From Brachionus manjavacas (lineage: Eukaryota > Rotifera > Eurotatoria > Ploima > Brachionidae): 64,000 nucleotides of DNA. A program made the position numbers and the translations under genes. The stretch covers positions 186,001-250,000 of the forward strand of contig JAHQIY010000026.1 in NCBI GenBank assembly GCA_019054805.1, in the 5' to 3' direction. The notes beneath the pieces were generated by a model. It was not told where the DNA came from. It saw nothing but the letters and a program-made list of their open reading frames with translations, and ran no database searches. Of this stretch, positions 3,696 to 55,000 are shown one piece after another. The stretch's first letter is position 1. Each line of letters starts with the position of its first letter.

Positions 3696-6600
3696 ATGCC
3701 AATTAAAGCACAAAAAAAAATTGAGGAAAACATCACAGAACTTAATGGAAATCAAACAAAAGACTTGAAAGGCATCGTCGATGATTCTGAAAAGCTCAAA
3801 TCCGATGGCGGTGAGCATCAAATCACAGTAAGTTAGAAATTAAAAATTTTACGTCAATCTAAAACAGTGAATATTTAGATAAGATCTGATTTAATAAAAA
3901 TATCTAAAAAATTTAGCTCCATTTCTGCTATGAAACTAGTTGTAAAAGAAATCAATTGTTTCCAAGCTAGTGTTTATGAAAAAAATGTAATTAGATTTCC
4001 GAAATTAAATCCAAGAACTCAAAATATACTTTTTAAAATTTTTTGAATTATTCTCTAGATCTTTCAGCGTTGTCGACTTAAACAACTTCGATTTCAAGCT
4101 TTTTGTTTAATCTTAGCTTTAAAAACGTCAAGATTCTCTTTCTTTCGTATTTTATCCACATATTTTCCAAACTTTGCTTCATCTTTATTGATTATTTTTT
4201 CCAATCTTGTTGGAGTAATAATGCAATTTAAATTTGGAGAAATTCCCATTAAGGTATGCTTTCAGCAATTAATAATCTAGGACCTATAAGGAGAGATAGA
4301 CTGAAGGAAAAAACTTAATTTATGTATAAGGTTGCTTGTCGCATTCGTCCATTAACAGAAGAAGAGATTCTGCTCGGATCATCATTAATTGGACACAAAA
4401 TAGCTGATGACAATATGATAGTGCTAATGGATCCGGCAGAAGACCATGATGACATTTTACGTGCTAATAGATCAAGAGAAAAGCAGTTTGTTTTCGACAT
4501 GGCTTTTGATGCCAAATCGACTCAAGTATTTTTTATTTTTGTTGTTGTTGTAATTTTAATAAAAAGTAATATGAAAATAATTTAATAGCAAGAAGTGTTC
4601 GAAAAAACTACCAAAAATTTGCTACCAGGAGTCATAAACGGGTATAATGCAACTGTATTTGCCTATGGAGCAACTGGTGCGGGCAAAACGTATACAATGT
4701 TGGGCACCGAAGAGGAGCCAGGAATTATGTTTAGGACTTTACATGAACTTTTTATTGAAATTTCGAATAAAAGTAGTAACAACATATATCAGGTGTCAAT
4801 GAGCTATCTGGAAATATACAATGAGCTCATTCGCGATTTATTGAACCCATCAAACGGATTTCTGGAATTAAGGGAAGATGCAAAGGGCGGAATTCAAATT
4901 GCAGGAATATCGGAACTTGTGGCTGAAACGCCCCAGGAAGTCATGTACATGCTGCATAAAGGTAACAAGGAACGAACCCAAGAACCTACAAAGGCAAATA
5001 AAACCTCATCTAGATCTCATGCAGTGCTTCAAGTTAACATAAAGCAGAGAGACAAAGTGCGACTTCATTCTCAAGAGATTAGATTAGGAAAATTGTACAT
5101 GATTGATCTGGCTGGCTCAGAAAGAGCCTCTCAAACTCAAAATACTGGCAAAAGAATGGTCGAAGGTGCACACATAAATCGAAGTCTTCTAGCTCTTGGA
5201 AATTGTATAAATGCGCTCAGCGAAAAAGGAAATTCAAAGTATGTCAATTATCGCGACAGTAAATTGACCAGGATTTTGAAGGATTCTTTGGGCGGAAATT
5301 CAAAAACTGTGATGATAGCTCACATAAGTCCAGCGTCTTTACACTTTGAAGAATCAAGGAACACACTAGTTTATGCTGACAGAGCAAAATTTATTCGAAC
5401 AAAAATAAGACGAAACGTAATTGATGTATCATATCACATAAGTCAGTACCAGCAAATAATCCAAGAACTAGCCCAAGAAATAGCTGTTTTGAAAGACCAA
5501 CGCTTTGATCTGGAATCCAGAATATCGAATTTAGACCCCAAAATGGGAAACAGCAATATTGGCATCAATCAAATGGCATTCAACAATGAAGAGAAGTCAA
5601 AAATAGAAGATCATCTAAAATTGAGGGAATCTTTGTTGCAGGCGTTCAAGCAGCAAATTAAGCTTAGGAAAAACATCCTTGAATTGGACAATGCAATAAT
5701 GGACATTAGCATTGAGGCTGAGCGTCACAATAAAATTATTCAAAAGTATTTTCCCCTCTACTCTTTTTTTTTCTATTTCAAATTAAAGATAAAAATGGCA
5801 TGTAATTATTACCTGAGTTTATTTTATGCAAAAAAAAAAACTAAAATACTGAATTTGGAACAAAATTATTTATTTATTACTTTTTTTTAGAAATATATAG
5901 TACTAATTATCTAATTAGAACAAAAAAATAAAAATAAAAACAAAATATATTTTTTAAGGACAAAAAAATCAAATTCTATATCGAGGTATTTTTTAGCATC
6001 CTGCAAGGAGCGAAAACTACAGAAAGGAAAATAAGTTTTACCTTTTCCTCTAGTTTTTCCTTTAGTATTAGCCTCAAGGGCCTGATCTTGAGATATGCTA
6101 CTAGGAATTTCTTCAATTACAGGCCTTTTTTTTTAAATTCCCGAGTTATTTTAAAGATTTATTTATTTATTTTTATTCGATTAACTATATCGAACTGGAG
6201 ATAAGGCTAGATTGGTTTACATTTAAGTATAATCAAAAGTGTTAATTTGAAAAACAAAACAAGAAAAATAAAAAAAATTTCAAAGTGGCTATTTTTTTCA
6301 ACATTATAAGATTAATTAATAAATAATTTTGTTTTTTTTGATTGTTTAAGAGTTTCATTTCAATCAATTATATATTTATAAATGAAAAATAGTAATCAAT
6401 TTAAATGTAATTGACATTAATTACAAAAAGAACTAAAATGCTTTTATTTTGTTCCTAATTCAGTATTTTAGTTTTTAAATTGCATATTATTGTTATTTAA
6501 AAATATTAAACGCGGATAAAAATATTCTCCAAAAATTTTAATAAAATTTTTTTGTTGTTGTTAAAAGAAAAAATGATAAAACATCAACAAGATTCAAATT

Positions 6601-8493
6601 TGATTGATTTAAAAATGAAAATTGAAAATTTTATTTTAGGTTAAAAATTAGTTTTTGAGTGCTTTTTTGGCTGTATCTTTAATTTTGATTTTTTAACAAA
6701 TTAGAATATTTTTGTCCAGTTCGTACTGAATTTAAGCTAAGATCAATTGAATTTTTTTGTTTTCAGTTGGAAATCAGGGGACAAAGCTTCAAGGTCAAAA
6801 ACACCTGATGAAGTGATAAACTCAAAAAAAGAATTAAAAGTTGTTGAACAAGATCGAGAAGAATTGGAGGCCAAGCACCAAAATGTGTCCAAGGAACTCG
6901 AGGCGATTCGAGCACGAACCAGAAAACTAAGAGATCAAGCAACAAAGAAACTGACAAATCAAGAACAAAAAGAGATTTTAAATTTACTTTTAAAAAACTT
7001 TGAATTCGAAATGAAAAATATAGAAATGCAAGCAAATTTGTTTAAAAGAGATTTTAAAATCAGAGAACAAGACTTGATCATACTGAGGTTGGAGCAACAT
7101 AGGTCCCTGTGTGACACTCTAATTTATCAGCAAAGACAACTAATTGTTCAGCATGATCTTAAGATTCCGCACGATCTGGATGAATTATTTACTCTGTATG
7201 CGCGCGATGTAAACGAAGGTCAATTGTACAATGACATCAATGGTATTCGATCTGCGTCCAATTCTTCTTTGGTAAATGTTTCACCAAAATCAAGCAATAC
7301 ACCTTTTTTGACTCAAATCGAGGAAGAAAACAATGACTTTTTTTCAACTACTCACACTTTTTCTGATAGGAGTTTGAATCGAAATCATTCTGTTAAAAAC
7401 TCTCTAAATCCAAATCAATTGTTACGCAAAGAAAACGATTTTTTGCAACGAAACAAAAACAGCAATCGCAAAACTTCCAAAGAGTTCAATGCTCCTTATT
7501 CTACGAACCCAGCCAACTTTGGTTCAGTGACAAATGGACAGCAGTTGCAATTTAATGCGAGGAAAAATTTGTCAAATATTAGCAACAGCACCAATGAAAG
7601 CAATAATATGGAAATTCTGCTGGAACACTCCTCGGCTGACAAGCAATCGATTAAAACCGCCGCGAACAACTCAAAAAGCCATCGGCCTTTTGAGCCTCCA
7701 GGACATGTCGAATCGCCATCGTTTAGAAAAAACGAAGACGCCAAACGACTCACCCAGGGAATAGCAGCAAAAGCAGCCCAGCGAAAAGCCTTTCAACATC
7801 ACAAAGACTTGATGCATGAATTGGGACACCAAGAAAATAGTGACCATTCATCAAACAATCCAAGTTTAAATAACAATCTAACTCCAAGTCGCTTAGCTAG
7901 ACATGACCAAATTTATGGCATAAATGATGATTTATTGGGAGAAAAAAAGAACAGTTTTTTGACTGACACGACTAACAAAACTAAAAAACAAGTTAAAATA
8001 AAGGAAATTGTCGAATTCAAGCTTCCTGATGATAAATCGAATGATAAAAAACATTTAATGAGACGAAACAGTTTTGATTCTGTTACTGCTTTTAAAAAAA
8101 GTAAGATTACTTTGCCAAAAATGTGCATTTAATGAGTTTTTTTGTTTGTATCAGCTAATCATCCAAAAGGAACTAGAAAAATGGCAAATGATTCGAAAAA
8201 ATCAAAATGTATCCTATTTTAATTTTAATTATAGAAAAAAGGTTTTTTTAATTTTATTTTTTTTAGCTCAGAATAATCAGCATTCGCCAAAAAAGACGAA
8301 CAGCAATTCTGTTAGTTTAAATAGTGTAAATAATGGATCAAACTTATCCAGTCGTTCAAATGGCAATAGTTTGTTAAATATTGAAAATAGCACAAATAGC
8401 AAAAATAATCAAAACAAACAAATACCAACGATACCGAATAATACAAAAGGAATTGACTTGTCTCTTTTAGGTACTTCGGTTTTAAACAAGTAA
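3696..8493 (+). CDS. KIF19: kinesin-8 family motor, KIF19-type
   Basis: Proposed exons are 3696-3827, 4331-4525, 4589-5745, 6767-8100, 8155-8208 and 8267-8493; every GT/AG junction keeps phase and gives 1032 residues (human KIF19 is about 1000). The motor domain starts at VACRIRPL. The P-loop GATGAGKT is near residue 136, switch I is NKTSSRSH, and switch II DLAGSE is near 282. ASQTQN and the neck are very close to KIF19. A coiled-coil tail follows; EQHRSLCD in exon 4 is a KIF19 signature. The C-terminus is Asn/Ser-rich and poorly conserved. Kinesin-8 motors walk to microtubule plus ends, and KIF19 depolymerises them at ciliary tips to limit cilium length. An AATAAA lies near 8525. The start in exon 1 is the least certain part. 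Two antisense coding-like scraps lie in its introns. Confidence 0.93.
4094..4249 (-). other. 51-codon antisense ORF in KIF19 intron 1
   Basis: An ATG-to-TGA frame of 51 codons on the minus strand inside the first KIF19 intron. It begins MGISPNLNCI and continues with a charged helical stretch (TRLEKIINKDEAKFGKYVDK) unlike the poly-A/T noise around it. I do not recognise the family. It could be the last piece of a decayed transposon protein or a small nested gene. No upstream partner exon was found. Confidence 0.3.
5970..6129 (-). pseudogene. coding-like antisense relic in KIF19 intron 3
   Basis: A minus-strand frame of about 53 codons includes KRPVIEEIPSSISQDQALEA, then GKGKTYFPFCSFRSLQDAKK. 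The block vaguely resembles the N-terminal segment of the MULE-like relic near 25.8 kb (TGRTFNFLPDCESLDEFK). It has no start codon and runs into poly-T noise. I treat it as a probable transposon-protein fragment sitting antisense in the intron. Confidence 0.35.
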
Positions 8494-9045
8494 ATAATGT
8501 AATTTAAATTGATTAAATCAAATCAATAAATTATTTAATATTGTGTTTGTTTTTCTTATGTGGAACCTGATTTTTATTAATCTTCATAATTAAAAACTCT
8601 TAGCCTTAATTCTTTTTTTAATTGAATCCAACAATGCATAGACTTATTAGTTTTATTTAATTGTTTTAAAATTCATGAAAAAATTCCAAGAAGAATTTTG
8701 GTGAAATTTGGTATTGAGTTACAAAAAAATGATGCAAATTTTAATCTAAATAATTTATGTTTGATTTTCTAAAGACTGCTTATATTTCTTAAAAAATATT
8801 AAAAAAAAATGGGAAATATATTTTTGATTTTATTTTTAACTCTTGAAATTATCATACAAAAAGCAGCTTTTGTAGTGTTTGTAGTGTTTGACGCGATGGA
8901 AGCCAGTCAGTCAAATTGGCAAACGGTTTTGGGATACATATGGCGATCAGAATTCCGGCCGCTAAATTATGTGATAAAAAAATTTAAAGCACCAAGAAAA
9001 AAATATTTTTGATTAATCTTTAATTCAAAAATTTTTTTTTTTATA
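8494..9045. other. intergenic, with a small GC-richer island
   Basis: Mostly A/T. Around 8865-8985 there is an unusually GC-rich stretch open on + (ATG at 8896 region, MEASQSNWQTVLGYIWRSEF). It has no splice context and no family I recognise, so it is not called as a gene. The start of the interval holds the KIF19 polyadenylation region. Confidence 0.4.
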
Positions 9046-9785
9046 TAAAAAAATATATTTACCCACAAAATGTGGGTATCAAAATAAAAAATAAAATTAA
9101 AGTTAATAAAATGAGATAAAAAAAATCAAAATAAAGTAAAAAGCTAAAAAAAAATGAAAGTTAAAAAGACATAGATTGTTACATGTGGCACATGTTTACA
9201 TAGTTCAGGTTTCAGGAAAAAAGGAGAAAATAGTAAGGTAGCAATTACACAATGGAATTGGGTATTCAATAAATCTCGATTCGAAAACTTCTTTGTATTC
9301 CTCCACCAGTCTTACAATCAATGGAATAGAATGACTCAGTCCTTTCCCAAAATATCTCTCACTCAACTCAAAAAGCCGATTCGAGACTGTTAGTAATTTA
9401 AGTTTATTAAAAGCTTCATGATGCACCATGTTGGGAGAATCATATTTTAACTTAAGGATAGATCTGACTGCTGTATTCTGAATTGCTTGTAACTTTTTGA
9501 TATTATTTTCTGAAAATGAGCTCAAGCAAGGAAAAGAATAGTCTAAAATTGATCTGACTAAAGATTTATAAAAATTTCCTAGTGTGTTTTGAGTAAGACC
9601 CCATTTTTTATTTGACAATATCTTAATAATATTTAGCCTTTTATTGCAGCGTTCTTTAATTTCGTTTACTAATAACTTTGAATCAAATTTTATACCAAGA
9701 AAATCTAAACCAAGAAACTTTATTAACTTAATTTTAAGTTTATTGTTTGTAGTTCTTGTAATTAATGTTTTCTTTTAAAATGTGT
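9046..9785 (-). pseudogene. 5'-truncated jockey-like LINE, RT C-terminus and 3' UTR
   Basis: Minus-strand reading from about 9780 gives the thumb and C-terminal part of a jockey-like reverse transcriptase: KFLG..FLGIKFDSKL, then a 137-codon open frame (9205-9618) with KSLVRSILDYSFPCL and KKLQAIQNTAVRSIL. The catalytic palm is missing, so it cannot be active. The 3' UTR (9060-9200) aligns with the copies at 0.3 and 23 kb. It ends in a different hairpin (ACCCACA-TTT-TGTGGGT, 9060-9076) rather than the GAGC/GCTC hairpin of those copies. Typical dead-on-arrival 5' truncation. Confidence 0.8.
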
Positions 9786-10361: not shown

Positions 10362-11389
10362 TCAGAGAAAACTAGCTGATATGAGATCACATGGATCAAA
10401 TGAAGTTAAATCTAAATTTAAATGATTCTCAAATTTAAACGAATTTAAGTCATTTAATTCGGTTTCGATGTCAAATTTTTGACTGTGCTCTGATTCAAAT
10501 TTTGATTCCAAATCAGATGATCCAGTGCTTAATAAATTAGTGGATATTTCATCAATCATTCGATCAATTTTTTCTATATCAATCATTTCTATCTGATTTT
10601 GACTATCCATCAGCAAATAATTGAGCGTTGCGTTTTCTTCATCATTGACTTCTTCAAAAGTTGAAAAATTAAAATCAGTTTTTTTCTCATTAAGTTGTCT
10701 TGGTTCGTTAAAAAGTGAATTTTGCGTCTCTGTACAATACTGATCAAATTCACCACTTTCAGAATTGCTAGTGTCAATTGAAAGCGATGTTTCGTCAACA
10801 TGGCTGGTCGAGCTCCACTTGTGCTGATCGAGCATGTTTTCTGTTTGCGATTGAGACTGGCATACATCAAAAAGCAAATCAGAATCTGAAATAGTTGCGC
10901 TCGAAGTAGTTTCTGCGGCAGAGAAACTCGAGAGACAGATACTGCTGATCTGACTACTTCAACACACAACTCTTCATTCTCTAATTTATTTTTTTCATCC
11001 TCTTTCTCATCTAGGCTTAATTTTGAAGCTTCAACAATTGTTTTGTACTTGACTAATTTTTTGTTTTCATCGGTTAAAATCTTTGATTTTTCTCTCAACA
11101 GATTGTTTTCATTTTTTAGTCTCACATTTTGTTCTTGGAGAAGACCGATTTCTTTTTCTAAATTTTCCATCTTAATTTTTTTTCGGTCACGAGCATTTTG
11201 AGCTGCTACTCGATTCTTCAACTTTCGACGAACTAGTTTCTCATCTTGGCTCAGGCTATTCAGTCTTTGGCGCTTTTTTTTCGGCGCATCTTCATTCAAT
11301 GAGTCAGTTGTCTTTTTTTCGTGAGACAATTTGTCATCTTGGACATTGAACACGTTTTGAATACGATTCGAATAGCTAAATGATGACAT
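10362..11389 (-). CDS. XBP1: XBP1, IRE1-spliced form (XBP1s)
   Basis: bZIP transcription factor of the unfolded protein response. Joining 11389-10945 to 10918-10362 after removing a 26-nt unconventional intron gives 333 residues (human XBP1s 376). A KKKRQRL basic patch is at 37-43, the basic region RRKLKNRVAAQNARDRKK at 54-71, with KNRVAAQ-ARDRKK matching animal XBP1. Leucine zipper heptads fall at L77, L84, L91, L98 and L105. Residues 1-149 are shared with the unspliced form. After the junction the frame changes to an acidic, Ser/Asp/Glu-rich tail (150-333), as expected for the XBP1s activation domain. No spliceosomal intron interrupts the coding part, unlike vertebrate XBP1. XBP1s would drive ER chaperone, ERAD and lipid-synthesis genes. 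Confidence 0.93.
10610..11389 (-). CDS. XBP1: XBP1, unspliced form (XBP1u)
   Basis: Without the 26-nt excision the same mRNA encodes 259 residues (human XBP1u 261). It shares residues 1-149 and then reads another frame. That frame contains a hydrophobic run (AQLFQILICFLMYASL, roughly 165-180) where vertebrate XBP1u has HR2, the segment that brings the nascent chain and mRNA to the ER membrane. The remaining tail is basic and low in recognisable motifs. I see no confident equivalent of the vertebrate translational-pausing peptide. That the tail anchors the mRNA here is inference. Confidence 0.85.
   Translation of the reverse strand: MSSFSYSNRIQNVFNVQDDKLSHEKKTTDSLNEDAPKKKRQRLNSLSQDEKLVRRKLKNRVAAQNARDRKKIKMENLEKEIGLLQEQNVRLKNENNLLREKSKILTDENKKLVKYKTIVEASKLSLDEKEDEKNKLENEELCVEVVRSAVSVSRVSLPQKLLRAQLFQILICFLMYASLNRKQKTCSISTSGARPAMLTKHRFQLTLAILKVVNLISIVQRRKIHFLTNQDNLMRKKLILIFQLLKKSMMKKTQRSIIC
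10909..10952 (-). promoter_or_regulatory. XBP1: paired IRE1 cleavage hairpins and 26-nt intron of XBP1
   Basis: Sense RNA forms hairpin 1 (10952-10936) CAGAU-CAGCAGU-AUCUG and hairpin 2 (10927-10909) GUUUCU-CUGCCGC-AGAAAC. Each has a seven-base loop fitting the IRE1 consensus CNG|CNGN with perfectly paired stems of 5 and 6 bp. Cleavage after the third loop base removes exactly 26 nt (10944-10919), the same length as the vertebrate XBP1 intron. Removal shifts the frame into the long acidic ORF. Confidence 0.95.
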
Positions 11390-19429: not shown

Positions 19430-20615
19430 GAGCATAGGGTCATTACTTTTGATTTCCACTCAAGTCGATCGTTTGCCTTTACCCTTGCTTCTCCTCATGT
19501 CATTCCCATTTCGATGAGTTCTTTCGTGATTGTTGACCTCTATGTTACTGCTGGTCGTCCTACCTTACGTCGCCCTTGAGGCATCCATTGAAGGGCTCTT
19601 TTTGGTATCCGTGTTTCTTTCATTCTAAGTACATACCCGAGCCATCGCAGTCTTTTGTTCTTAATGCATTGACTTAATGGCTCTGAATTTGTTCTTCGGT
19701 ATAGGTCAGCATTCGACAATGTCTCAGGCCAGTGTATCCAGAGAATTCGCCACAGGCTTCCCGTGTGGAAGGTGTTAAGACTTTTCCTGTCAGATTCACA
19801 CATCCCCCAATATTCACTTACGTACATCAGTGTTGCTTTTGTTTCATTGTTGTATAGCTTAGGTTTTGTTTTCTTACTGTAGCCGGTTGACTTCCATACT
19901 GGTTTGAGTCTTGCGAAGGCACTCTTTGCTTTACCAATTCTATTCTTAATGTCTCTGTGTGTTCCCAACGTTGTACTGATTGTGCTGCCTAGGTATGTGA
20001 ATTCATTTACACAATCGATTGGTGTTCCATCGATGGTGATCGGGGTATCCAATTTGGTGTTTATGCACATAACTTTCATTTTGGCCCCATTTATTTCGAG
20101 TCTGATTGGTTTAGCATTGTTCGCCAACTCTTGGGTCTTAAATGCATATGTGCTTTTGTATTAGATACTAGCTGCAGATCGTCCAGAAAGTCTAAGTCTT
20201 CAAGCTTTGCTGTTTATCCCCATTGTATACCCCTCGCACTGGCAGTTGTTTTCTTCATGACATAGTCAATCAATATTAGGAATAGTGTCGGAGAGAGAAC
20301 GCACCCTTGTCTGACTCCTGTGCACACTTTGAAGCTCTCAGATTGTCCTTTTTCCAGAATCACGCTACACTCGAATTTCTCCTAGAAGAGTTTTATCAAG
20401 TTAACTATCTTCTGTGGCAGGCCATATGATTTCAATATTGCCCACAAGGTTTCTCTGTGTATGCTATCAAAGGCTTTTTTGAAGTCAATGAAGTTAAGAT
20501 ACACAGGGCTATTCCATTCCAGACTTTGTTCTATGATGTTCCTAATGATGTGTAAATATCTGGTCTATGCATCCTCTACCTCGTCTAAATCCTGCTTGTT
20601 CTTCTCTAAGTATAA
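19430..20615 (-). pseudogene. RTE-type LINE, 3' half (RT palm to C-terminus)
   Basis: Minus strand from about 20612 reads REEQAGFRRGRGCIDQIFT, FKKAFDSIHRETLW, VRQGCVLSPTLFL (RT domains) and LEDLDFLDDLQLV (degraded F-A-D-D box). A 195-codon open frame (19540-20127) follows, with EFTYLGSTIST, IGKAKSAFARLKPVW and RWLGYVLRM...QGRRKVGRP. These are RTE-clade motifs. Stops and frameshifts show it is dead. It joins head to head with the inverted 5' segment at 20.62 kb. Confidence 0.85.
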
Positions 20616-22894: not shown

Positions 22895-25492
22895 TTTATT
22901 TATTTGTTAACTGTACCGAGCTAAAGCTCCTTCAGAATAAAAATAAATAAAAATTAAGTTAAGTAAAATAAAATCAAAAAATAAAAATAAAAATTTGAAT
23001 AAAGTTTTAAGAGTTAATAACCTGAAATAAAAAATAGATATATGATAATGAGAGTTTTAGGTCATTCAGGTTTACATAGTTTAGGTTTCAGGAAAAAACA
23101 GGAATTTTTAAGGTAGCAATTCCACAATGGAGTCGGGTATTCGATATTTCTTTATTCGAAACCCGCTTTGTATTCCTTCATCAGTCTTTCAACCAATGGA
23201 ATATAATGACTCAGTCCTGTCCCAACATATCTCTCACTCAACTCAAGAAGTCGATTCGAGATTGTAAGTAATTTAATTTTATTAAAAGCCTCCTGATGCA
23301 TGATGCTGGAGGGAGTACCTGAGGATAGATCTGACTGCTGTATTCTGAATTGCTTGTAACTTTTTGATATTATTTTCTGAAAATGAATTCAAGCAAGGAA
23401 ACGAATAGTCTAGAATTGAACCAACTAAAGATTTATAAAGATTTACCAACATTTTTGATCAAGACCCCATTTTTTGTTTGACAGAATCTTAATTAGATTT
23501 AGCCTTGTATTGCAATTCTTTTATTTCGTCAACCAGTGTATTAAAATTTAATTTAGAATCAAATTTAAAACCTAGAAACTTAATTTCTTTTTGGCTTTTA
23601 ATTCTTTTTCTATAAATTTTTAGATTAAGATTATCATTTTCTTTCTTGTACTTAGAGAATACTACTGAACACGACTTTTCAACTGACTTCTTCATTTTCC
23701 ACTTAATTAGCCATTGTTCTAGCTCGTTGGCGTATTTATTTATCTTATTTTCAAGATACCTCTTTTTGTTGAAAATAAAAAAAAGTAACTAGATCATCTG
23801 CAAAAAGAAGAGAGTATTCATTATCTGTTTTGTTTCTTTTAGGAATATCATTAATATAAATGCTAAATAAAAGAGGACTAATAACTGAGCCTTGAGGAAC
23901 ACCTGCAGTTATTTGATATTCGTCGCTCAAGTGGTAATTCACATTCACCCTAAATGTCCTTGAGTCTAAGAAGGATCTAATCCAGTTAATTAAGTATTGT
24001 GGTGGACTAATTATTATTAATTTATAAATTAAACCTTCGTGCCAAACCCTATCAAAGGCTTTAGAAATATCAAAGAAAAGGGAACAAACACTTTTCTTAT
24101 TAATAAATGACTCTACAATTTCGCAGAGATAGGTTAAAGAGTTTTGAGATTTCTATTAAGGAATTTCTTGGTAAATTTTTAAGCATTAGATTATGTATTT
24201 GGTCAGGTCCTGAAGCCGCTTCAGTATTTTTAAAGCCAGTTTAAGTTCGTTTAGGGAAATAGGATCATTGAAATTACACCGATTGTAATTTTTGAGGTAT
24301 TCAAAATTAAAGCTAATTATTTCATTATCTTTTTCATTATCTATTTGACTAGAGTTAGGACTAAATGTTAAAGATAATATTTCTCCGAAGTATTTTCCTG
24401 TTTCCTTATCAGTTTTTAATTCCTTGTTATTTGAGATCAAATTTGGAATTAATTTTGATCCTTTCTGTGTTCCAAATTTGTTTTTTTTTTCCAAAAAGGC
24501 CTGCTTGAAAGTAGATTTTTCCCAATTTTCTGAATGAAATCAAACCAATTTTGATTCTAGAATTTTCTTACTGAGATTTTTAACTCTGAGGTTAAGTGAT
24601 TAAATCTTTTCTTAAGTAATGGACAACGAGTTCTTTGAAAGTTTTTTCTAATTTTTCTACGTTCTTTGATCAGCATAACTATATCTGGTGGTAGACTAGT
24701 TTTGTATATTTTCTCTGATTGATAAGGTATGCATTTATGTGAAGCAGATATGATTTTTTTTGTAATTTTGTTATTCAGCTCATCTATTGAAAGTGTGTTT
24801 TCACTAAGGTAATCTCTATCTTCATTTAAGGTGTCTCTAAAAAGTTGCCAGTTTCCTTTCTTATAGTTGATTCCTAATTGTAGATTTGCCTCTAATTAAA
24901 TAGTCAATGGAAATTGATGCTTCAATTGGAAAATGGTCTCTAGTCATATCTTGACTATTGAGAACACAAAAATCAGTAACTTGTCTATTAATGAAGAAGA
25001 AACTAAAAAAAGGTCAAAAATTTCAAAGCAGTTCCTATTAAAAATATTATGTGTAGGACATTTGTCGATAATCACTGAAAAATCTAATTCATTAATTTTC
25101 TAACAATGAGCTGTTTCATTTTCTCCTAATCAGCCTATTTGCTTCGTCCTGGCGTTAAGGTCCCCACACAAAATGTGGTTTCTACAGTTCCTTTTTATTG
25201 TTTTAAATAGCTCAAAGTTAATTAATTTTTTGGGTCGATTGTATGGACTAAACACAGATATTTCATTACTCTTTCCTAGATTTAGTTTAATACAAAGCAG
25301 TTCACAATTAAAGTGCTCAAAAGAAAAGCTTTGAAAAAAATCAATTCCTTCTGTAATCAAAATAGCTACTCCTCCTCTATAACTTTTGCGTGGTTTAGTT
25401 ATTGAGTGATATATTTTAAGTCTAAATAAATATTTGCTTCACTCAAATCAATTTTTATTTCATTGAGTAAAACAATGTCGGGACAGTTCTGG
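22895..25492 (-). pseudogene. jockey-like LINE, ORF2 endonuclease and reverse transcriptase, decayed
   Basis: The longest LINE copy here, read right to left. The APE-type endonuclease part has VQNCPDIVLLNEIK, GIDFFQSFSFEHFNCELLCI and NHILCGDLNAR (25130-25490), then a linker. The RT includes DPISLNELKLALK (24.2 kb), AGVPQGSVISPLLFSIYIND and the catalytic LLFADD (23.8 kb), then thumb FLGFKFDSKLNF (23.6 kb) and C-terminus SILDYSFPCLNSFS. The 3' UTR matches the 0.3- and 9-kb copies and ends with the GAGCTAAAGCTC hairpin (22918-22929) plus an AT tail. Multiple stops and frameshifts and a missing 5' end make it inactive. Confidence 0.9.
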
Positions 25493-31565: not shown

Positions 31566-32460
31566 TAAATTATGGTTCACCTAACCGACTAGACCAAGTT
31601 TTTAACGATTGATAAATTTTAATCTAAATGAATTATTTATCTTATTTAAGTTTATTTTTAACTTTTTTCATATTTTTATGTTTATTTGTTTTTTTTTTGA
31701 AAATGAAAACAATATTTGAAACATCGCACTTTTAATGTTATTTCAACATTGGATACATTTGTATTTCAAACACAAAAAATTAAACCAAATATTAATGAAA
31801 ATGTTTTATTATTGAAATATTAATGAATATAATTGAAGTAGTTAAATTTTAAGATTGAATTAAAAGCTTAACAATTTTAAAAAATGTAGCAATTTGAGAT
31901 TTATTTAGAGAATGGATGATTGAATAGAGGTTTTCTTCTTAGGTCTCTTTTTCTAATTTCATATTAATTTGTATTTAAATAATTAAAATAAATCTTAATC
32001 TATATGCTGTGGACTCCTAAAAATAATGCAAAATTCAATATGGACTATAGTAAACTGTATCCACAAAAATAGTAAATTATACCACTAATTTTATAAAACA
32101 GCCACAAATTAAATTTTCAACCACAGATTCAGTTTTTTTCCATTAATCTAGTTATTTTGCCAATAATTTTTATTTTTAAAACCATATTTTGATTATAATA
32201 GTCATAGATTTAATAAAAAGAATATCAAAAGAAGAATAAATAAAAGCAAAATAAAAAAAAACTATTGCTTTATTAATTCAAATAAAAAATATTTTTTTAA
32301 ACTGCGTGTCATAAATTTTACATTTGTTAAGATTTTCGAATCTTTTATCATTATAATTGATTAAAGATGAACTGGTAGTTAGAATATCTAGATTTCATTA
32401 ACTTTCTTTATTTCTTCCTTTCTTGATTTCTTTGGCCATTTCATTTAAGTCTTCAAATTA
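31566..32460. other. intergenic, mostly unrecognised
   Basis: A GTTCACCTAACCGACTAGA motif at about 31575 recurs at 32723, marking another repeat. 31680-31790 shares a block (AAACACAAAAAATTAAACC) with the foldback arms and with 33010-33080. No gene is seen. Confidence 0.5.
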
Positions 32461-32607
32461 CTAGTGTAGATCGTAAGTGATTGCTTTACCTCGCATTCTA
32501 ATTTTATACAGAGATTTGAGTTCATCGGGCAAAGCTTGACCAACATCGTCTAATGTTTGGTCAGTTGGACCCTCTAATATGCTTTCTGTTGATAAGGTTT
32601 GAATCAT
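32461..32607 (-). CDS. small ORF of 48 codons, unknown
   Basis: Minus strand ATG to TAG: MIQTLSTESILEGPTDQTLD, then DVGQALPDELKSLYKIRMRG and KAITYDLH. The composition is clearly protein-like. After the stop the frame continues with FEDLNEMAKEIKKG, which also looks coding, so this may be a longer protein broken by two stops, or a two-exon gene whose splice I cannot place. No family recognised. It sits among repeats. Confidence 0.35.
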   Translation of the reverse strand: MIQTLSTESILEGPTDQTLDDVGQALPDELKSLYKIRMRGKAITYDLH

Positions 32608-32796
32608 TTAATTAAAAAAAAATATATATGTAATATATTCATATTTATAAAAAATATTGTTTTTTATTTTTCTTTTTTTTATTCTTCTTTTGATATTTTG
32701 TTTATTAAATCTATGACTGTTGTTCACCTAACCGACTAGATCGAGTATTTCAACGATTGATTATCTTTTTTTTTTCTTTTTAATTTTTTGTTCATA

Positions 32797-33215
32797 TATT
32801 TTTATTCTGAAGGAGCATTAGCTCGGTACAGATAAATAAATAAACTATTTATAAGTTAAAAAAGAATTTTCAGTATTTTTTTTTCAAATTTCTAAATAAA
32901 AATTAAATTCATTCTATTTCACTAAAGAGTTTAATTTCAAATATGAAAATGCTTGCAATATTAACTTAAAATTAATTTTTTATTTGAGACTGAAAAAATA
33001 ATTTGAAATATCGCACTTTTTCAATGTAATTTCAACATTGGATACATTTTGTAATTCAAACACAAAAAATTAAACTAAATCAATCTTGACCTTAAAATTT
33101 ATGGTAACAATTGAAATAATGATGAAAAAGTTAAATTCTTAGGCATCGCATTGGACTCAAAACTTACCTTTGGTTTAATGGTAGATGAATTAAATTTGAA
33201 TGATTTATTTTTTTT
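32797..33215 (+). pseudogene. jockey-like LINE fragments: 3' hairpin and RT thumb piece
   Basis: 32808-32850 carries TTCTGAAGGAGC with the hairpin GAGC-ATTA-GCTC (32813-32824), CGGTACAG and a tail of AAATA repeats: the 3' end of one copy. At 33070-33210 another fragment reads KFLGIALDSKLTFGLMVDEL, the RT thumb motif also seen at 23.6 kb. Both are short dead pieces. Confidence 0.65.
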
Positions 33216-33218
33216 TTT

Positions 33219-33400
33219 TCAAAAGTCCCACAAACCAAGACAAACCGGTCCATTACGCGGACGGTTTTTTGCAACAAAATAAACAGTCTAAATTAAACGG
33301 GCGGCCAAAAAACCCGCCAACTTTTTGGGGGGCGGTTTTTCAGCTTTGCGGTCTAAATTTTGGACTGCAAAGCTGAAAAAAAGGGGTGATAAGATAATAA
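33219..33400. mobile_element. GC-rich end of the foldback element family seen at 62.4 kb
   Basis: The segment begins AAGACAAACCGGTCCATTAC, the reverse complement (one base different) of the end of the 62.4-62.9 kb element. It contains local hairpins (GCGGCC..., CAGCTTTGCGGTC and its inverse) and runs into GGTGATAAGATAATAAAA, the arm start of that element. GC content is far above the surroundings. Confidence 0.55.
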
Positions 33401-33439
33401 AAAAATTGAAATTTAAGATAATTTTTTTTTCTTTAATAT

Positions 33440-33835
33440 ATTTTTATTCTGAAGGAGCAATAGCTTGGTACATATCAGACTTGTTTATAAGTCACAAAAA
33501 TTTAAGTCAAAGTTATTACTTGAACTAGACTTTTTTTTATAATTAACAATCACCAAAAATCATAAAATGTTAAAAAATTAAATTCTATTTCTTTATGATA
33601 TGTATCACCTATTTATAAATGTGCGTTTTTCAACGAAATATTTTTTGTCTGAAGGCTGAACCGTATGGATAAATGCAGATAACTCTGACCAATATAATTT
33701 TAAGATTATGGTTTATTTAGAAATTTTAGAAAAGAAAGTGACTTGACTTAAAAAAAAATTACTAATGACTTAAAAAGACTTGTGACTTAAAAACAAGTCT
33801 GGTACATATTAACAAATAAATTAATAAATCATTCA
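33440..33835 (+). mobile_element. jockey-like LINE 3' tail split by an hAT MITE
   Basis: TTCTGAAGGAGC-AATA-GCTTGGTACATAT (33448-33475) is a LINE 3' end whose AT tail resumes at 33810 (TAACAAATAAATTAATAAAT). A 326-bp MITE with GTACATAT duplicated on both sides separates them. Removing it restores a normal LINE tail. Confidence 0.8.
33476..33801. mobile_element. hAT-type MITE with perfect GTACATAT target duplication
   Basis: Ends CAGACTTG...CAAGTCTG are perfect 8-bp inverted repeats. They are flanked by GTACATAT at 33468-33475 and 33802-33809. Internal AAGTCAAAG and GACTTGACTT motifs are typical of this family, which recurs at 12.4, 30.5 and 63.5 kb. It has no coding capacity. Confidence 0.9.
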
Positions 33836-33897
33836 TCACTTACAAAAATATGAAAAAAAAAAAGTTGTCCTAAAATTGATGCTTGCGGCATTATTAA

Positions 33898-34115
33898 CAC
33901 TCAAAGACCGACTTTTTTTGACAAAAACTTTAAACGTTTAAATGTTGCATTCGTTCCATTAAAGTCTGTAATATGAAAAGCAGAATACTAAAAAACCGTT
34001 ATTTAAGGTTTAAAAATAATATAAAAAAACATGTAAATATGATTGATTGTGAATTAAAAAATTAAATTTGAATTTTTGAAAAAGTGTCAGATTGAGACCG
34101 CCGGTCCTTTTAGTG
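33898..34115. mobile_element. piggyBac-like MITE flanked by TTAA
   Basis: TTAA at 33894-33897 and 34116-34119 flank CACTCAAAGACCGAC ... GGTCCTTTTAGTG. The ends are imperfect inverted repeats (CACTMAAAG.ACCG). The TTAA target site and the CACT start fit piggyBac-type elements. It is 218 bp with no coding capacity. Confidence 0.75.
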
Positions 34116-34557
34116 TTAATTCTAAGGATACCGGTTTAGTTTATCATTCGAGTTGACTCGGGTCGTATGGAGTAAACCTTTATTTTGATTTAGAGTAACT
34201 GGTATTTGGTATTGATTTATAAATCCTAAAAAATATTAATTTAAAAAATTTTCACTGTTTTCAATTGTTTTTTTAGAAGTTGTATTCTAAGAAAAAAGCA
34301 AAAGAATAATTCTATTTTAAGTGAAAAATTAACACAATTGCAAATAAAATAATAGTTAAAAAATAATTAATCTATTTATATAATCAGTTTTGTAATAAAT
34401 GAGGATTTAAACGAAATTGTGAAATATCCTCAATAAAAGCCTGCTAAAATAAAGTCAGGTTTGTATTGAAAGTATGGTTCTTAAAAAAGTATAAATATAG
34501 GTAACATTTAATTCAAATGTATTATTTTTATTTTAAAAAAATCCTAATTCAAATAGC

Positions 34558-37500
34558 ATGACTGATCTATTAAATGATCTTGAAAAACTAGAAAAATTAT
34601 CTCTGGTATCCAAAGTTTGTACAGAATTGGAAAATCATTTAGGAGTCAATGACAAAGATTTGGCCGAGTTCATTATCCATTTGGCAGAGAAAAATGACAC
34701 ATTTGACAAGTTCAAAAAAGTTTTAAATGAAATGAGTGGAGACCAATATTCGGACTCGTTTATAGAAAATCTGCTGCGGATCATTCAGCGCATGAATCCA
34801 AGCATGCGCAAAAGCCAGCAAGACGAGATCAAGTCTTCAGCATCAAACGACTCTTTTGCTTCCAAAAGACTAAATCAGCTTGATGCAATGACCAAAAAAA
34901 GTCTTTGTCCTGCTCTTGCTTTGCCGAATGAAGAAAAAAAGCCTGACGAAATACCAGTCGAAAAGACAAGAGAAAAGAACGAAAGAAATTGTTCGGATGA
35001 GAAATCGTTTGAAAAGGAAAAATCACGAAAGAAGCGGCGACACTCTCGGTCGCGATCAAGGTCAAGGCCAAGAAGGTCAAGGTCAAGGCCAAGGAGGTCA
35101 AGGTCCATGTCCAAGTCGCCTTGTAGAGAAAAAAGCCGGAAACACGACATAAAGAGCCACAGAAAAGAAAAAGACCGACACAGAAGTAGAAGCCGAGACT
35201 GGCGAAGAGACAAACAAAGTGAATTGAAAGAGCCACAAGTGGGATGCATTTACAGTGGCCGAGTGACCAAAATTTTGGAATTCGGATGCTTTGTGCAGTT
35301 GACCGAGTTTGGCAAGAGAACAGAAGGATTGGTGCATATTTCGAACCTGCGTTCTGAAGGCCGAGTGCATCAAGTGACAGATGTGGTTGATCAGGATCAA
35401 AAAGTGAAAGTAAAAATTTTGTCAATAAGCGGAAGCAAAATAAGCTTGTCGATAAAAGATGTCGACCAAATTAGTGGCAAAGATTTGAATGCACAAATTA
35501 TTAGAAATGGCGAGGCGTCATCGTCGTTGCACAGAAATGCGGACAGGCCCAACAATCTACTTGACATGGTTCCAATTGTTGACGAGGATGCGGCGTCCAA
35601 GAAAAAAGTCAAGCCTATATCGGACTTTGAGAGATGGGAGCTGCAGCAGCTGAGATCAGCCAATGCCATCCAGCTGACCGAGCTGCCTTTTTACGACGAC
35701 GAAATGGGCGTTCTGAAAAAAGACGACGAGGAGGACGACGTCGACATCGAAATAGAAATTGTGGAGGAGGACTGTGCGTTTTTGAAGGGCTACGGCCGAT
35801 CCAAGCTGTCCGATCTGAGTCCGATCAAAATAGTCAAAAATCCGGACGGCTCTCTTCAGCAAGCAGCCATGATGCAAGGCGCTCTGTCCAAAGAAAGACG
35901 CGAGCTGAAGATGGCGCAGCAGGAAGCGTTGGCCAAGCAGAACCAAGACGACTTTGACGAAATAATGCGATCGGACGACCCGTTCGCAGTCAAAAAAGAG
36001 TCGAGCGGCGCGTCCCAGCAGCCTGGCAAGTTGTTTCAGCTGGCCGAGTGGAAGAAGAGCCTGCTGACCGGCTCGAAAGGCTCGTTTGGCAAAAAGACCA
36101 GTCTGAGCATAGCCGAACAACGAGAAAGCTTGCCCATTTTCAAACTGAGAGACGAATTGTTGAAGGCCGTGCACGACAACCAAATAATTGTGGTCATAGG
36201 AGAGACAGGCTCGGGCAAGACCACTCAGATCACTCAGTATTTGGCCGAGGAGGGCTACAGCTCGCTGGGAAAGATAGGCTGCACGCAGCCGAGAAGAGTG
36301 GCCGCGATGTCGGTGGCCAAGCGTGTAGCCGAGGAGGTGGGCGTTCGCTTGGGCCAAGAGGTCGGATACACAATACGTTTCGAGGACTGCACTTCGTCCG
36401 AAACAAAAATAAAGTACATGACAGATGGCATGTTGCTGAGAGAGTGTCTCATCGATTCGGACATGAAACAGTATTCGGTGGTGATGTTGGACGAGGCGCA
36501 CGAGAGAACAATACACACCGATGTTCTGTTTGGCTTGATGAAAAAAGCCGTGCAGAAACGAAAAGACCTCAAGTTGATAGTCACGTCGGCCACTTTGGAC
36601 TCGGTCAAATTTTCGGAGTATTTTTTCAGCGCGCCCATATTCACCATTCCGGGCCGAATGTTTCCCGTCGAAATTCTGTACACCAAAGAGCCCGAAACAG
36701 ACTACTTGGACGCTTGTCTAATTACTGTCATGCAAATTCATTTGACCGAGCCGCCCGGAGACATTCTCGTTTTTTTGACCGGCCAAGAAGAAATCGACAC
36801 CGCCTGCGAAATCCTCTTCGAACGACTTCGATCGTTGGGGCCCGAAGCGCCAGAGCTGCTCATTTTGCCGGTCTATTCGGCGCTGCCAAGCGAAATGCAG
36901 TCCAAAATATTCGAGCCAGCGCCGCCTGGATCCAGAAAGGTCATAATCGCCACCAACATAGCCGAAACGTCGCTCACCATCGACGGAATATTCTATGTGG
37001 TCGACCCGGGATTCGTCAAGCAAAAAGTCTACAACGCAAAGACAAGCATGGACAGCTTGGTGGTCACTCCGATTTCACAGGCTCAAGCTAAGCAGAGAGC
37101 AGGCCGAGCCGGTCGGACTGGGCCCGGCAAATGCTACAGACTGTACACAGAAAGGGCTTACAGAGACGAAATGCTGTCCACCAATGTGCCAGAGATTCAA
37201 CGAACTAATCTCGCATCCACAGTCCTATCACTCAAAGCCATGGGCATCAACGATCTGCTGTCTTTTGATTTTATGGATCCTCCTCCGATGGAAACGCTCA
37301 TTATGGCAATGGAACAATTGCACGCTTTGAGCGCTTTGGACGACGAGGGCCTTTTGACCAAGTTGGGACGAAGAATGGCCGAGTTTCCGCTCGAGCCACA
37401 ATTGTCCAAGATGCTGATAATGAGTGTGCATTTGGGCTGTGCGGACGAAGCTCTCACCATTGTGTCAATGCTCTCCGTCCAAAATATCTACTATAGGCCG

Positions 37501-38124
37501 AAAGAAAGAGCCGAGGTGGCCGATCAGCGCAAAGCAAGGTTCCATCAGAACGAAGGAGACCATTTGACTTTGCTGTGCGTTTACAATGCTTGGAAAAATC
37601 ACAACTTTTCGAGCACTTGGTGCTTTGAGAATTTTATTCAGCACAGATCGCTTAAGCGCGCTCAAGACATCAGAAAGCAAATGTTGGGCATCATGGACAG
37701 ACACAAATTAGATGTGATTTCGTGTGGCAAAAATTCGACAAAAGTGCAAAAAGCCATTTGCAGTGGGTTTTTTAGAAATGTGGCCAAACGTGATCCACAA
37801 GACGGATACAGAACTCTAGTCGACAATCAGGTTGTGTATGTTCACCCTTCAAGTGCCATCTACCAGCATCAACCAGAATGGCTCGTCTATCACGAACTAG
37901 TATTTACTACTAAGGAATATATGCGGGAAGTGTGCGCTATCGATCCCAAATGGCTTGTTGAGTTTGCTCCATCGTTTTTCAAATTCGGCAATCCCACAAA
38001 ACTTTCCAAACACAAAAAAGAGCAAAAGATAGATCCATTGTACAACAAATACGAAAATGCCAATGATTGGCGTATTTCCAAGCTAAAAAAGCCCTATTAC
38101 AATCCGGCTGGCAAATTTGGCTAA
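34558..38124 (+). CDS. DHX8: DEAH-box RNA helicase DHX8 (yeast Prp22)
   Basis: A single 1188-codon exon (human DHX8 1220) nearly collinear with DHX8. It has the N-terminal [19 protein letters not shown] block, an RS-rich stretch (about 155-220), an S1 RNA-binding domain (about 225-300), Walker A GETGSGKT at 548-555, DEAH at 645-648, [31 protein letters not shown] near 846, and the HA2/OB-fold C-terminus. Prp22/DHX8 proofreads the second splicing step and releases mature mRNA from the spliceosome in the nucleus. The coding sequence, above all 35.6-37.1 kb, is far richer in G+C than anything nearby and creates long antisense shadow frames, which I reject. An AATAAA follows near 38179. Absence of introns may reflect loss or an old retrocopy replacing the parent. 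Confidence 0.98.
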
Positions 38125-38353
38125 ATTTGTTTTTTTTTTTTTAATCTCAAAAAAAAAAAAAAATGTTGTGTTGTGTAAATAAATTCATAAAAATTTGTTT
38201 TAATTAATTTTTTTATTTTTTAAATCCTAAAATTAAAAAAGCTCAGATTCAATTTAAAATTAAGCTTGACTTGACTTGGAGTTTTTTTTTCAATTTTTTC
38301 TAATACTCAGCTTATTTTTTTAATTGTTGTAGCATTGACTTGACGACATGACT

Positions 38354-38502
38354 CAAACAACTACAGTATTGATATGACTCGATGTTTATGGTAAGGGTTA
38401 CGGAAAATAACGTAGACTTACCAAAGAAAGGTGGGAAGTTTACGTAATTTACCATAAAAATTTCCATTAACATCGAGTCATGTCAATACTGAAAGTTGTT
38501 TG
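38354..38502. mobile_element. small MITE-like inverted repeat
   Basis: Arms CAAACAACTACAGTATTGAT, then ATGACTCGATGTT (38354 on), and their near-perfect complement ending at 38502 enclose a second inner hairpin (GGTAA..TACG / CGTA..TTACC). The whole 149 bp can fold into one long stem. There is no coding frame. GACTTGAC motifs just outside suggest it sits in an hAT-like relic. Confidence 0.65.
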
Positions 38503-38678
38503 ATTTATGTCAGCAGAGTGAATTTAAGAGCAATGAAGCAGGAGGAAATAAATTTCTCTTATCTATAATCAGCCCTGCTTCAACATTATTAATTTCATTT
38601 TCCCATTCGTGCCTAAAGTTATAAATGCTTTTAGTTACATTTTTTGATCCCTTTCCTTATGTCTTATCTGTCTCTAGC

Positions 38679-38745
38679 TTAACACTCAAACGACGGCTTA
38701 ATTTTTAACCAAAAGAGACGACAGTGTCAATTTAAAAAAAAAGAA
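38679..38745 (+). mobile_element. piggyBac-like terminal repeat, one end
   Basis: TTAACACTCAAACGACGGCT at 38679 closely matches the left end of the MITE at 33894 (TTAACACTCAAAGACCGACT). A matching right end was not found, so this is either a solo end or a decayed copy. Confidence 0.45.
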
Positions 38746-40218
38746 AGTTTTGATGTAAAAATTAAAAATTTTATTCATAAAAAGTAAAGAAATAAGTTAA
38801 TTCTTTCAAAAAAAAGATTATTATAAAATTGACGTAAGTATACTCGATTTAACTTTATTTTCAAAATAAAAATGAACACATAAAAGTTCCTAGATTTTTA
38901 ATTGGGCTTTCTTCGAAGAAACTGGTGTGCTTGCATGTTTCCCAACACGTTTTTAGTCAAATTTGGTATATTTTGGTGTACTGTACGTATAGTTGTACAC
39001 ATATACTTGTTTTGATTTAACTAAATCTAATATCTCTTGACCAAAAGAAAGCAAAAACATTCTTCGAGATATGTTATGCTGATTGCAAAAATTGAACAGT
39101 ATCCAGCTGTTAATTTAACCATATTTATAATGTTGAAAACTTGGTTTAATTCAAAAAGGGTCAATTTGACACCACAGGGCTTTGCGTATAAATTTTTTTT
39201 CTTGCGTAAATGTTAAATGTTGTTTGTTTTTATCGGTCACTATATACAGTGCCGGAAATTAACTTGTCACATCATATTATCTGATATCATTTAACATCAT
39301 TTTTTAAACTTTCCTCATATCAGCTGATATCAGCTATTATCATTTGATATCGGATAATATAAAGTGAATTAAAATTTGAATTTTTTTATCGAAAAATTTG
39401 TAAATAATCAGCTTCCAGGAAAATAAAACTAATCAATTTTGAAAAAATTTATTGAAGACTTTTCAAATTATAGAATAATATAATAAATATTCATTAATTA
39501 GTTCTTATTCTGGTGACCTCAAACTATCCATTAAGCTTCCCTCTTGAAGGCTTTTTTGATCTCGACTTAAATTTGTGAAATATTTTTAATAAATTCCAAA
39601 GTCCCAAACATCGGGAAAACTTCAATAAAGTCGATAATTTTTTATTTATTCTTAAATTTGTTTCTGTTTTCAGAATAAAAAGAAAAGTTATGTAAACAAT
39701 GAGACCATTGAAAAATAAATTCTATAATCTTTTAGGAAAAACATCTGAACATTTTTAACTGTTCAAATATTTAATCTCAAAATATATATTACAAAGTGCA
39801 CATTAAATTTTTTCTTTTGATTGTAAATTTTTTTTTAAATTTTCGGATTCTTTAATTCTAATGATTTAACGGTATTTTATGTAAGTCTGTGCGACTCGAG
39901 GTTCCGTTAAATTTTTGGACTTTGTGAAAAATTTTTTGAAAAAGCTAGACAAGTTTAAATAAAATTTAATGTTTATATTATAAAAGTAAAGCAATTTGAA
40001 ATTTTTTATTTTAAATCTCTAACTAATTCGAGTTTTATCTCCAAAAAAAATGAGATAAGTTAAATGCATGAACGAAGCATTTTTTTATTTTTGAAAATAA
40101 AAAAGTGAATTTTTTTTAAAAATTAATTAAAATTTTATGTTCAAGCTCAAACTGCGTTTATTGAAAATTCAAATTGGCTTAGATTATATTTATTCAACAG
40201 TTGGTATCTTCATGCAAA
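38746..40218. other. intergenic, repeat traces only
   Basis: CAGTGCCGGAAATTAACTTG at about 39248 looks like another hAT-type terminus, followed at 39275-39365 by ATATCAGCTGATATCAGC-type short palindromes. No gene before the first secreted-protein gene. Confidence 0.45.
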
Positions 40219-52021: not shown

Positions 52022-55000
52022 TTAATCATCTTTGTGCTCATTCAATGGAATCTGTATGTGTAAACCATTACTTTCCAGATGAGTCGGATACAAAATTCCC
52101 TCAAAAAATTTACCATTATAATCCAAAGATACGGATAAGCAATTTTCTTTCGAAAAGTTACTTTCTTTCTCGTAAATTTTTATGTTCATTTTCGAACATT
52201 TATTCTCATTGATTTTGTTATCGATAGACAATTTTTTCGCGCTTTGTTCTTGTATTCTAAAGTCGTTTTCTAGCTGTCTTTTAAAAGAATTGTATGCTTT
52301 TGTTTCACTTTCAACCAGAGGAATATTTGAATGAGAATTAGAGTTTATGTTTGACAATGAGTCAGATATAGAACCACTGCTGGAAGGTGGCGTGTTTACT
52401 TCGAAATAGTTTTTGAAAAACGGCTGAAAATTGGGAATATTGGGCTGGTTTGGATGTCTTTGTTGATTAATATTTGAATTGAGTTCATAATTTGTGTTCT
52501 CATAAAATTGAGATACCGTTTGATTATGATGTTGAGCAGCAGCGGCTGCCGCTGCGGCTGCAGCAGCTAAGAGTGCGGTGTGGTGTGGATTTTGATGCGT
52601 ATTGGCAATTATTTGATTATGAGGTTGGTGCATTGAATACTGTTGCTGAGTAGGTTGACTTGGATTAATTTGGTTCGGTTTAGTTGAACTCAAGTTAACA
52701 TTTGAAATTGGAGGACTAGTATACTCGTTGCCATAGACTGGGCGTCTTCCTTCTCTCCTATTTCCATCGATGGCTGCCTGAAGCTCACTTGGTGTGCTCA
52801 TTTTCATTTTTTCACATTCGTATGGGTATAGATATTTCATATATTGGGTTCTCAGAGTGAACGCTGCACTGGTTATTGAACTGGGCAAATTTAGTCCCTT
52901 GGTTATTTCTCTCCATAGTTTTTTATTGATTACTTCTACAAGACCTCCTTTCGATACAACTAACCGATAGAGTTCATATAAGTCGAGAACATGCTTTGCC
53001 ATAATTGGTATTCGATTAACTGGTGAGCCTCTTTTCTGCATAAATGTAAACAAATCGTCCAGAAACTCTTTTCGTTTTGCATCATCCGACAATTCGTAGA
53101 GCTTAAAACAGAAATAAAATTAAAAAAAAAAAACAGATTTCATTTATTTGAAATTTCAAAGCAAAAATTTGAGCTTTTTTCAGATTAAAAATAAAAACTA
53201 TTTAATCTAATTAGACTTTATTTTATTTTTAAAATTTCTTAAAAATGGGTTGTGTTATTGAATTATCTTCTCTCTTTTCTGAACCGCTCAAGGTCCAAAC
53301 TTTTAGAATATATCAGGCCTGTTGAATTTGCTTAAAAAAATTGAAGTTTTCGTCCATTTTTTGTTGTTCAATTTTAATTTGAAAAAGTATAAAGCTATTT
53401 ATCAAGCTGATGATTTTAAAATTCTTTTGCACAAATGCACATTTCAATTAAACATTGAAACCTAACTGCATAACAATTTTTAGGGCAACAAATTTAATCA
53501 TTTCATTTCTTTGCAAAAATTTGAAGATAGAAAAATCAAATTTTTACATTAAACATGTTTGATCAGAATTTTAGCACGAAAACTATTTATGTAAATAAAT
53601 AGCCTAATACTTTATTCTGATTAATAATGAGTATCTAAAATTTTATCTAGGAGTCTGTCCAAGAGCTCTATGACTTTATTTTCTGCTGCATGTTTTATAT
53701 AAATTCTAATTTTAACTTTATAAATTCTAATTTTAATTTTAAGTAGAAGTTAAAAAAGTTAAAAAAAAAATTGAAAAGCAGCTAAATTAAAGATAATTAT
53801 GAAAAACATTTAAGATTAATTTTAAGCTTTAATTTTTTCTTCTATTTATCTGAATTTTTAATAAAGGATTTTAAATTTTTTTGATTAGTTTTAGTTGATA
53901 CATTATTAATGCAAACTGCAAAATTGAATCTCTAAATTGATTTAAATTTCTGTTAAGAAAATAAAATTTTAATTTTAAAAATGTTTAATTCATGTAAATA
54001 ATGGTATAATTATCTGATGATTTGACATTTTTTTACTCTATTTAAATGGTTTTGGGTTATAAAAATACTTTCGTCATTTTTTAATGATTTCGAAAAAATG
54101 ATTGAATTAAAGAAAGAAACTACAGAATTCAGTAAAACAAAAAAATAAAAAAAAACATCAATAGATAAGTATTTTTGCGAAAATGCAATTAAAAAAAAAA
54201 AAATAAATTTAAGAAAAATAAAAAAAAATTAATTGGAAACCAGCCCTGTCGATCAATTTGTTATTTAAGTAATTTATGTGCAAAATAATTTAGCAAATGT
54301 CTGAAAAAAAGTGGTTTCTTGTGGTGATCTTATGTTTTCTTCAAAAATTTTCCATAATTTAGGCATTGATCTCATTTTTTACTTACAATAGCTAATTTGT
54401 AATTAAAAAATAGTAATAATGTGAATTACTCTTTTTTTTCGTCACCCTTACTGCAAGGAAAATTAGTGCTTTATTAAGGTGTTCAGTGAAATAAATAATA
54501 TCAACAATACTAATATTACTAATAAATCATAATGAAATTTATTTTATTTAAATTAACTTTGGGTTTAAACTCGTGACTGAATGACATAAATCTGTGAATT
54601 TAAATCAAAACAATTTGCTTGGATAGATGCTAAGATGAAATTGTCAACTTTTGGGCATTCTCAGAGTACTTAAAATATTCAGCTTTGACTTGCTGTATTT
54701 TTTTTCCAAAATTTAGTAGAACGATCAAATTCAATGCTCTTTTTCTCATGTGCTCTTTTATTTTGGTCGCTTTTTTAAAGTGTAAAAATTTTTCGAATAG
54801 AAGAAATCTTTTGATGCCGATTTTTGATCAATTTTAAGAAATACAGCATCTAAAAAACGCTTTTTTTTCAATATTTAAATTGTTAGTTTAAAATTTCAAG
54901 TTACAATAGCTTCAATGGTATCAATCATCTTTTTTTTTGAAAATACTTATGCATTTTTCAGCATTAAACAATTGAATCAATATAATCTTTTTTTTCCAAA

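Follow-up and report, generated by a model that had tools for sequence, protein, structure and literature searches.

In a 64,000-nt window of genomic DNA (contig JAHQIY010000026.1, positions 186,001 to 250,000; coordinates below are those of the window unless a locus is named), the minus strand very probably carries the XBP1 gene of a rotifer of the Brachionus plicatilis complex, whose mRNA would be a substrate of the rotifer's own IRE1 and undergo a frame-switching splice. The basis for this assignment can be shown from the sequence: hairpin-forming repeats, their spacing, two reading frames, a possible exon-exon duplex, and genes for IRE1, RtcB and archease. The unspliced open reading frame (XBP1u; 10610..11389, minus strand) starts at an ATG at 11389, encodes 259 residues and has its stop ending at 10610. 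The spliced frame (XBP1s; 11389-10945 joined to 10918-10362, minus strand) encodes 333 residues, with its stop ending at 10362. An earlier note on this DNA had proposed the gene, its strand, the cut positions, a 26-nt intron and both frames, all of which we recovered when we recomputed them from the sequence.

The predicted protein contains a bZIP domain at residues 48-109 (11063..11248, minus strand; Pfam bZIP_2, E 7e-9, and bZIP_1, E 1.7e-8, both above the cut-off), as expected for a member of the XBP1 family. The 102 residues of XBP1u that lie past the 3' cut are basic (pI, isoelectric point, 11.6), and XBP1s carries an acidic tail of 184 residues (pI 4.05). Searching the protein against its own genome gave one match among the best candidates scored, and a search for relatives in a collection of viral contigs gave 64 pattern matches, none of which was confirmed. 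No spliceosomal intron interrupts the coding sequence in the model that begins with the ATG at 11389, although upstream exons are possible. In the complex, few genes are reported to consist of a single exon (460 of the 12,484 in B. plicatilis; PMC6555955).

Two hairpins with 7-nt CNGNNGN loops flank the switch point. The 5' hairpin (CAGAU-CAGCAGU-AUCUG; 10936..10952, minus strand) has five perfect pairs and the loop CAG|CAGU at 10947-10941. The 3' hairpin (AGUUUCU-CUGCCGC-AGAAACU; 10908..10928, minus strand) has the loop CUG|CCGC at 10921-10915 and seven perfect pairs, so that, of the stems of five and six pairs given in the earlier note, the former stands and the latter is one pair short. Cuts after the third base of each loop remove 26 nt (10919..10944, minus strand; boundaries CA..TG rather than GT..AG), which changes the 259-residue frame to the 333-residue frame with its acidic tail. 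The earlier note had called this the vertebrate length, in agreement with the 26-nt intron of human XBP1 (PMC8674358). Because bases are repeated at the joints, deletion of 10918-10943, 10919-10944 or 10920-10945 yields the same spliced RNA, and the boundary is ambiguous by one base in either direction. The proposed read-out, sequencing reads that lack exactly 10919-10944, thus has to be relaxed to any of three deletions that are indistinguishable in the spliced RNA.

To judge how unusual this arrangement is, we scanned both strands of the window for pairs of CNGNNGN loops separated by 17-60 nt, each loop on a stem of 4 bp or longer. The XBP1 pair was the only one, and 300 dinucleotide shuffles of the whole window contained none. 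Lowering the stem length to 3 bp added three further pairs in the window, each 41 nt apart (30575/30616 on the plus strand; 26982/26941 and 26941/26900 on the minus strand). No pair 17-200 nt apart, even with 3-bp stems, was present in 20 stretches of 10 kb (200 kb) from the same genome.

The exon ends can form a zipper-like duplex with each other. Its 5' strand lies at 10953..10971 and its 3' strand at 10893..10910 (both minus strand), and it comprises 18 bp with one bulged G, sharing three bases with the 3' hairpin stem. Folding of the isolated exon ends gave -23.1 kcal/mol with 30 nt per side and -30.7 kcal/mol with 40 nt per side. Among 3000 permutations of synonymous codons, 0.67% matched this duplex at 30 nt per side and 0.13% at 40 nt (P 0.0067 and 0.0013), and sliding controls more than 60 nt from the joint matched it in 0 of 821, 0 of 801 and about 0.5% of 841 positions at 30, 40 and 20 nt per side, respectively. 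With 30 or 40 nt per side, the duplex is therefore stronger than expected from the coding constraint by itself. A review describes a similar RNA zipper for XBP1 (PMC6833987). Apart from the hairpins, the duplex provides the best evidence of selection for splicing in this stretch.

The unspliced frame provides a further line of evidence. XBP1u remains open for 102 codons beyond the 3' cut, a length equaled in 1.3% (codons permuted) and 1.0% (codons sampled) of 20000 synonymous trials that preserved the spliced protein. This rarity modestly supports selection on the unspliced tail.

The genome, searched as 114 Mb in 61 contigs, encodes the enzymes that such a switch would use. A model of the IRE1 kinase and RNase domains with GT..AG junctions matches chain 3p23_A of human IRE1 (E 4e-141), and an upstream exon encodes a luminal domain matching the solved IRE1 luminal domains 6shc_A (E 2.5e-30) and 2hz6_A (E 7.5e-30). 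In the alignment to 3p23_A, the rotifer residues at human Y892, R905, N906 and H910, placed by spacing, are identical; the roles of these residues in human IRE1 have been described (PMC9472280). The rotifer gene encodes a luminal domain, a transmembrane segment (identified by eye), a kinase and a KEN RNase with the catalytic residues. Two introns were modeled in it (locus L007, 5947-5994, 48 nt, and 6247-9341, 3095 nt), the longer of which splits the KEN RNase. A TGA inside one of the IRE1 matches is explained if it is intronic, since the match starts 37 bases before the modeled acceptor. RtcB is encoded by two exons at one locus, the larger of which matches the RtcB homolog 9i8v_C (E 1.7e-188), and archease is found at one place in the genome (matching 8btx_A, E 5.2e-51). 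Downstream of the RtcB gene lies a 167-residue small heat-shock frame, alpha-crystallin-like by eye (locus L008, 1-501, minus strand).

The host is, on sequence grounds, a monogonont rotifer of the B. plicatilis complex. We tried two of the ten mate-recognition primers in Table 6 of PMC3495898. The mmr-b primer gave one exact match in the genome and two places with one mismatch, the mmr-a7 primer gave four exact matches, and the reversed-pattern control gave none for either. One locus of each kind was inspected and contained tandem repeats of 261 bp and 276 bp, the lengths published in the same source. Together, the primer matches and repeat lengths place the host in the complex, and the earlier note's suggestion of a rotifer was correct. 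Allowing up to three mismatches, we found no copy of the bdelloid spliced-leader sequence in the genome; a published study likewise reports no evidence that the monogonont B. plicatilis has a trans-spliced leader (PMC1925144).

Several observations weigh against this picture. The putative orthology to XBP1 is based on three features: the bZIP domain, the switch of reading frame and a comparison with the basic region of human XBP1. Searching the protein against the Protein Data Bank (PDB) gave 12 matches, which were other bZIPs or an uncharacterized protein, none of them XBP1 by name. At 37 °C, the 72-nt context has as its minimum-energy fold (-21.3 kcal/mol) a long zipped stem in which neither hairpin forms, and the 5' hairpin has a computed pair probability of about 0.28, the 3' hairpin one of about 0.05. 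The best fold that retains both hairpins (-19.5 kcal/mol at 37 °C) is less stable than the minimum by 1.8 kcal/mol at 37 °C and by 0.9 kcal/mol at 25 °C. The folding z-score of the region is modest (-1.69, with 14 of 200 shuffles as good) and similar on the opposite strand (-1.77). The duplex is not unusual at 20 nt per side, where 16% of synonymous permutations equal it (P 0.16), and its perfect 8-bp core reaches P 0.067 by synonymous permutation and 0.017 by plain shuffling; the support thus comes from the whole duplex and not from the core. Finally, the loops do not both follow the human IRE1 consensus CNG|CAGN: the 5' loop CAGCAGU fits, and the 3' loop CUGCCGC is off by one base. Some one-base variants of that consensus are still cut and are among the accepted human targets (PMC8674358), and for this reason we treat CUG|CCGC as a variant and not as an exclusion. 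This loop fits the broader CNGNNGN pattern and the yeast Ire1 specificity CNG|(C/A)NGN (PMC8104961).

Other explanations of the overlapping frames can be weighed against the same data. Programmed ribosomal frameshifting, with the hairpins as stimulatory structures, could join two overlapping open frames in an RNA able to fold, as is found here. However, the IRE1 pattern is present in both loops, the phases of the two cuts match, and the genome contains the IRE1, RtcB and archease genes; we consider frameshifting very unlikely. That the 26 nt form an ordinary spliceosomal micro-intron draws some plausibility from the very short introns that occur here, such as the 48-nt intron modeled in the IRE1 gene, but none of the three equivalent boundary pairs (CA..TG, AG..GC and GC..CT) is GT..AG, which leaves this explanation a practically negligible chance. 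IRE1 also degrades mRNAs with such loops (PMC8674358), and the hairpins might be cleaved without splicing, in the manner of regulated IRE1-dependent decay (RIDD), the longer frame being a chance overlap. We regard such RIDD-like mRNA destruction as extremely improbable.

Under the IRE1-XBP1 interpretation, the ribosome of an unstressed cell would translate XBP1u, with its bZIP domain and basic tail. On endoplasmic reticulum (ER) stress, IRE1 would cut both loops after the third base (CAG|CAGU and CUG|CCGC) and release the 26-nt piece, the exon ends would be held together by the 18-bp duplex, and RtcB with archease would ligate them. The ribosome would then translate XBP1s with its strongly acidic, presumably activating tail. 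We infer the cleavage, the ligation, their dependence on stress and the activation by the acidic tail from the sequence features described above.

The XBP1u tail bears on how the mRNA might reach the ER. On the basis of location and hydropathy, residues 161-179 (10853..10909, minus strand; LLRAQLFQILICFLMYASL) form an HR2-like hydrophobic stretch, with a mean hydropathy of 1.89 over 15 residues. This value was equaled in 11-12% of synonymous trials (P 0.11 and 0.12) and is not significant, because the spliced frame itself favors hydrophobic residues in the other frame. HR2-dependent targeting is supported in mammals (PMC9217131). The 102-residue tail contains no tryptophan, and the last 121 residues matched no PDB chain at E up to 10. 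Drosophila and vertebrate XBP1u are reported to share a leucine and a tryptophan, mutation of either of which abolishes pausing of the human protein (PMC4138184). The human pausing residue W256 thus has no rotifer counterpart. The rotifer switch might conceivably operate without a pausing peptide, with ER targeting by hydrophobic stretches alone or not co-translational and a strong zipper keeping splicing efficient, but we regard this as rather unlikely. In flies, splicing still took place (9 of 38 clones, as compared to 15 of 37 in the control) when a deletion had removed HR2 and the pausing region from Xbp1 (PMC4138184). The absence of the pausing tryptophan constitutes a natural test of the need for XBP1u mRNA targeting.

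Elsewhere in the window, a kinesin motor domain exon lies at 4592-5887 (plus strand; Pfam Kinesin, E 1.1e-101). A single open frame of 1194 residues with S1 and DEAH-type helicase domains (34540-38121, plus strand), presumably like DHX8/PRP22, overlaps the two GC-richer 4-kb steps at 32001-40000, and an ARID DNA-binding domain with a poly-alanine run is found at 52025-53119 (minus strand). A reverse transcriptase fragment (23754-24152, minus strand; RVT_1, E 7e-22) is accompanied in the window by two frames that are retroelement-like by eye, 9208-9774, with no Pfam match, and 19543-20160, with DUF6451 below the cut-off. Scans of the window returned no Rfam family at the gathering score and, with ARAGORN, no tRNA.

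At the sequence level, the analysis adds rotifers (Gnathifera) to the lineages with an IRE1-XBP1 switch, here with a zipper-like duplex. Judged from titles and the beginnings of abstracts, none of the papers listed in our literature searches describes a rotifer XBP1, and an earlier rotifer entry is possible in Hooks and Griffiths-Jones 2011, reportedly on conserved HAC1/XBP1 intron structures, or in Peschek 2015, said to concern the zipper. In the passages searched in two rotifer papers, neither XBP nor IRE1 occurs in PMC12220480, and neither "unfolded" nor "bzip" in PMC5333405. The value of the finding lies in a well-supported new lineage, the evidence for a zipper and the possible loss of the pausing peptide, and the gene is a candidate ER-stress marker for a rotifer group that serves in studies of ageing and toxicology.

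The mechanism is the standard metazoan IRE1-XBP1 switch, of which this is a new example and not a new mechanism; from what is known of it, an IRE1 intron of 26 nt is to be expected in the XBP1 of an animal. Among the known systems, the intron of Drosophila Xbp1 is 23 nt long, human XBP1 has several exons and yeast uses a ligase of another type. Yeast HAC1 and plant bZIP60 share the IRE1-type loops, and the 3' loop of the rotifer conforms to the specificity of yeast Ire1, but HAC1 has an intron about ten times the length of those in bZIP60 or XBP1 (PMC4891664). Drosophila Xbp1 is spliced by IRE1 and has a hydrophobic HR2 in its unspliced tail, although the fly retains the leucine and tryptophan of the pausing region, whereas the rotifer tail has no tryptophan (PMC4138184). 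The rotifer gene differs from human XBP1 in its 3' loop (CUG|CCGC as opposed to CNG|CAGN), in having no tryptophan in the XBP1u tail where the human protein has W256, and in a coding sequence modeled without spliceosomal introns (upstream exons being possible). Rotifer and human have in common two 7-nt CNGNNGN loops with the cut, predicted in the rotifer, after the third base, a 26-nt intron (PMC8674358), a frame switch in a bZIP protein, encoded IRE1, RtcB and archease, and a possible exon-exon zipper.
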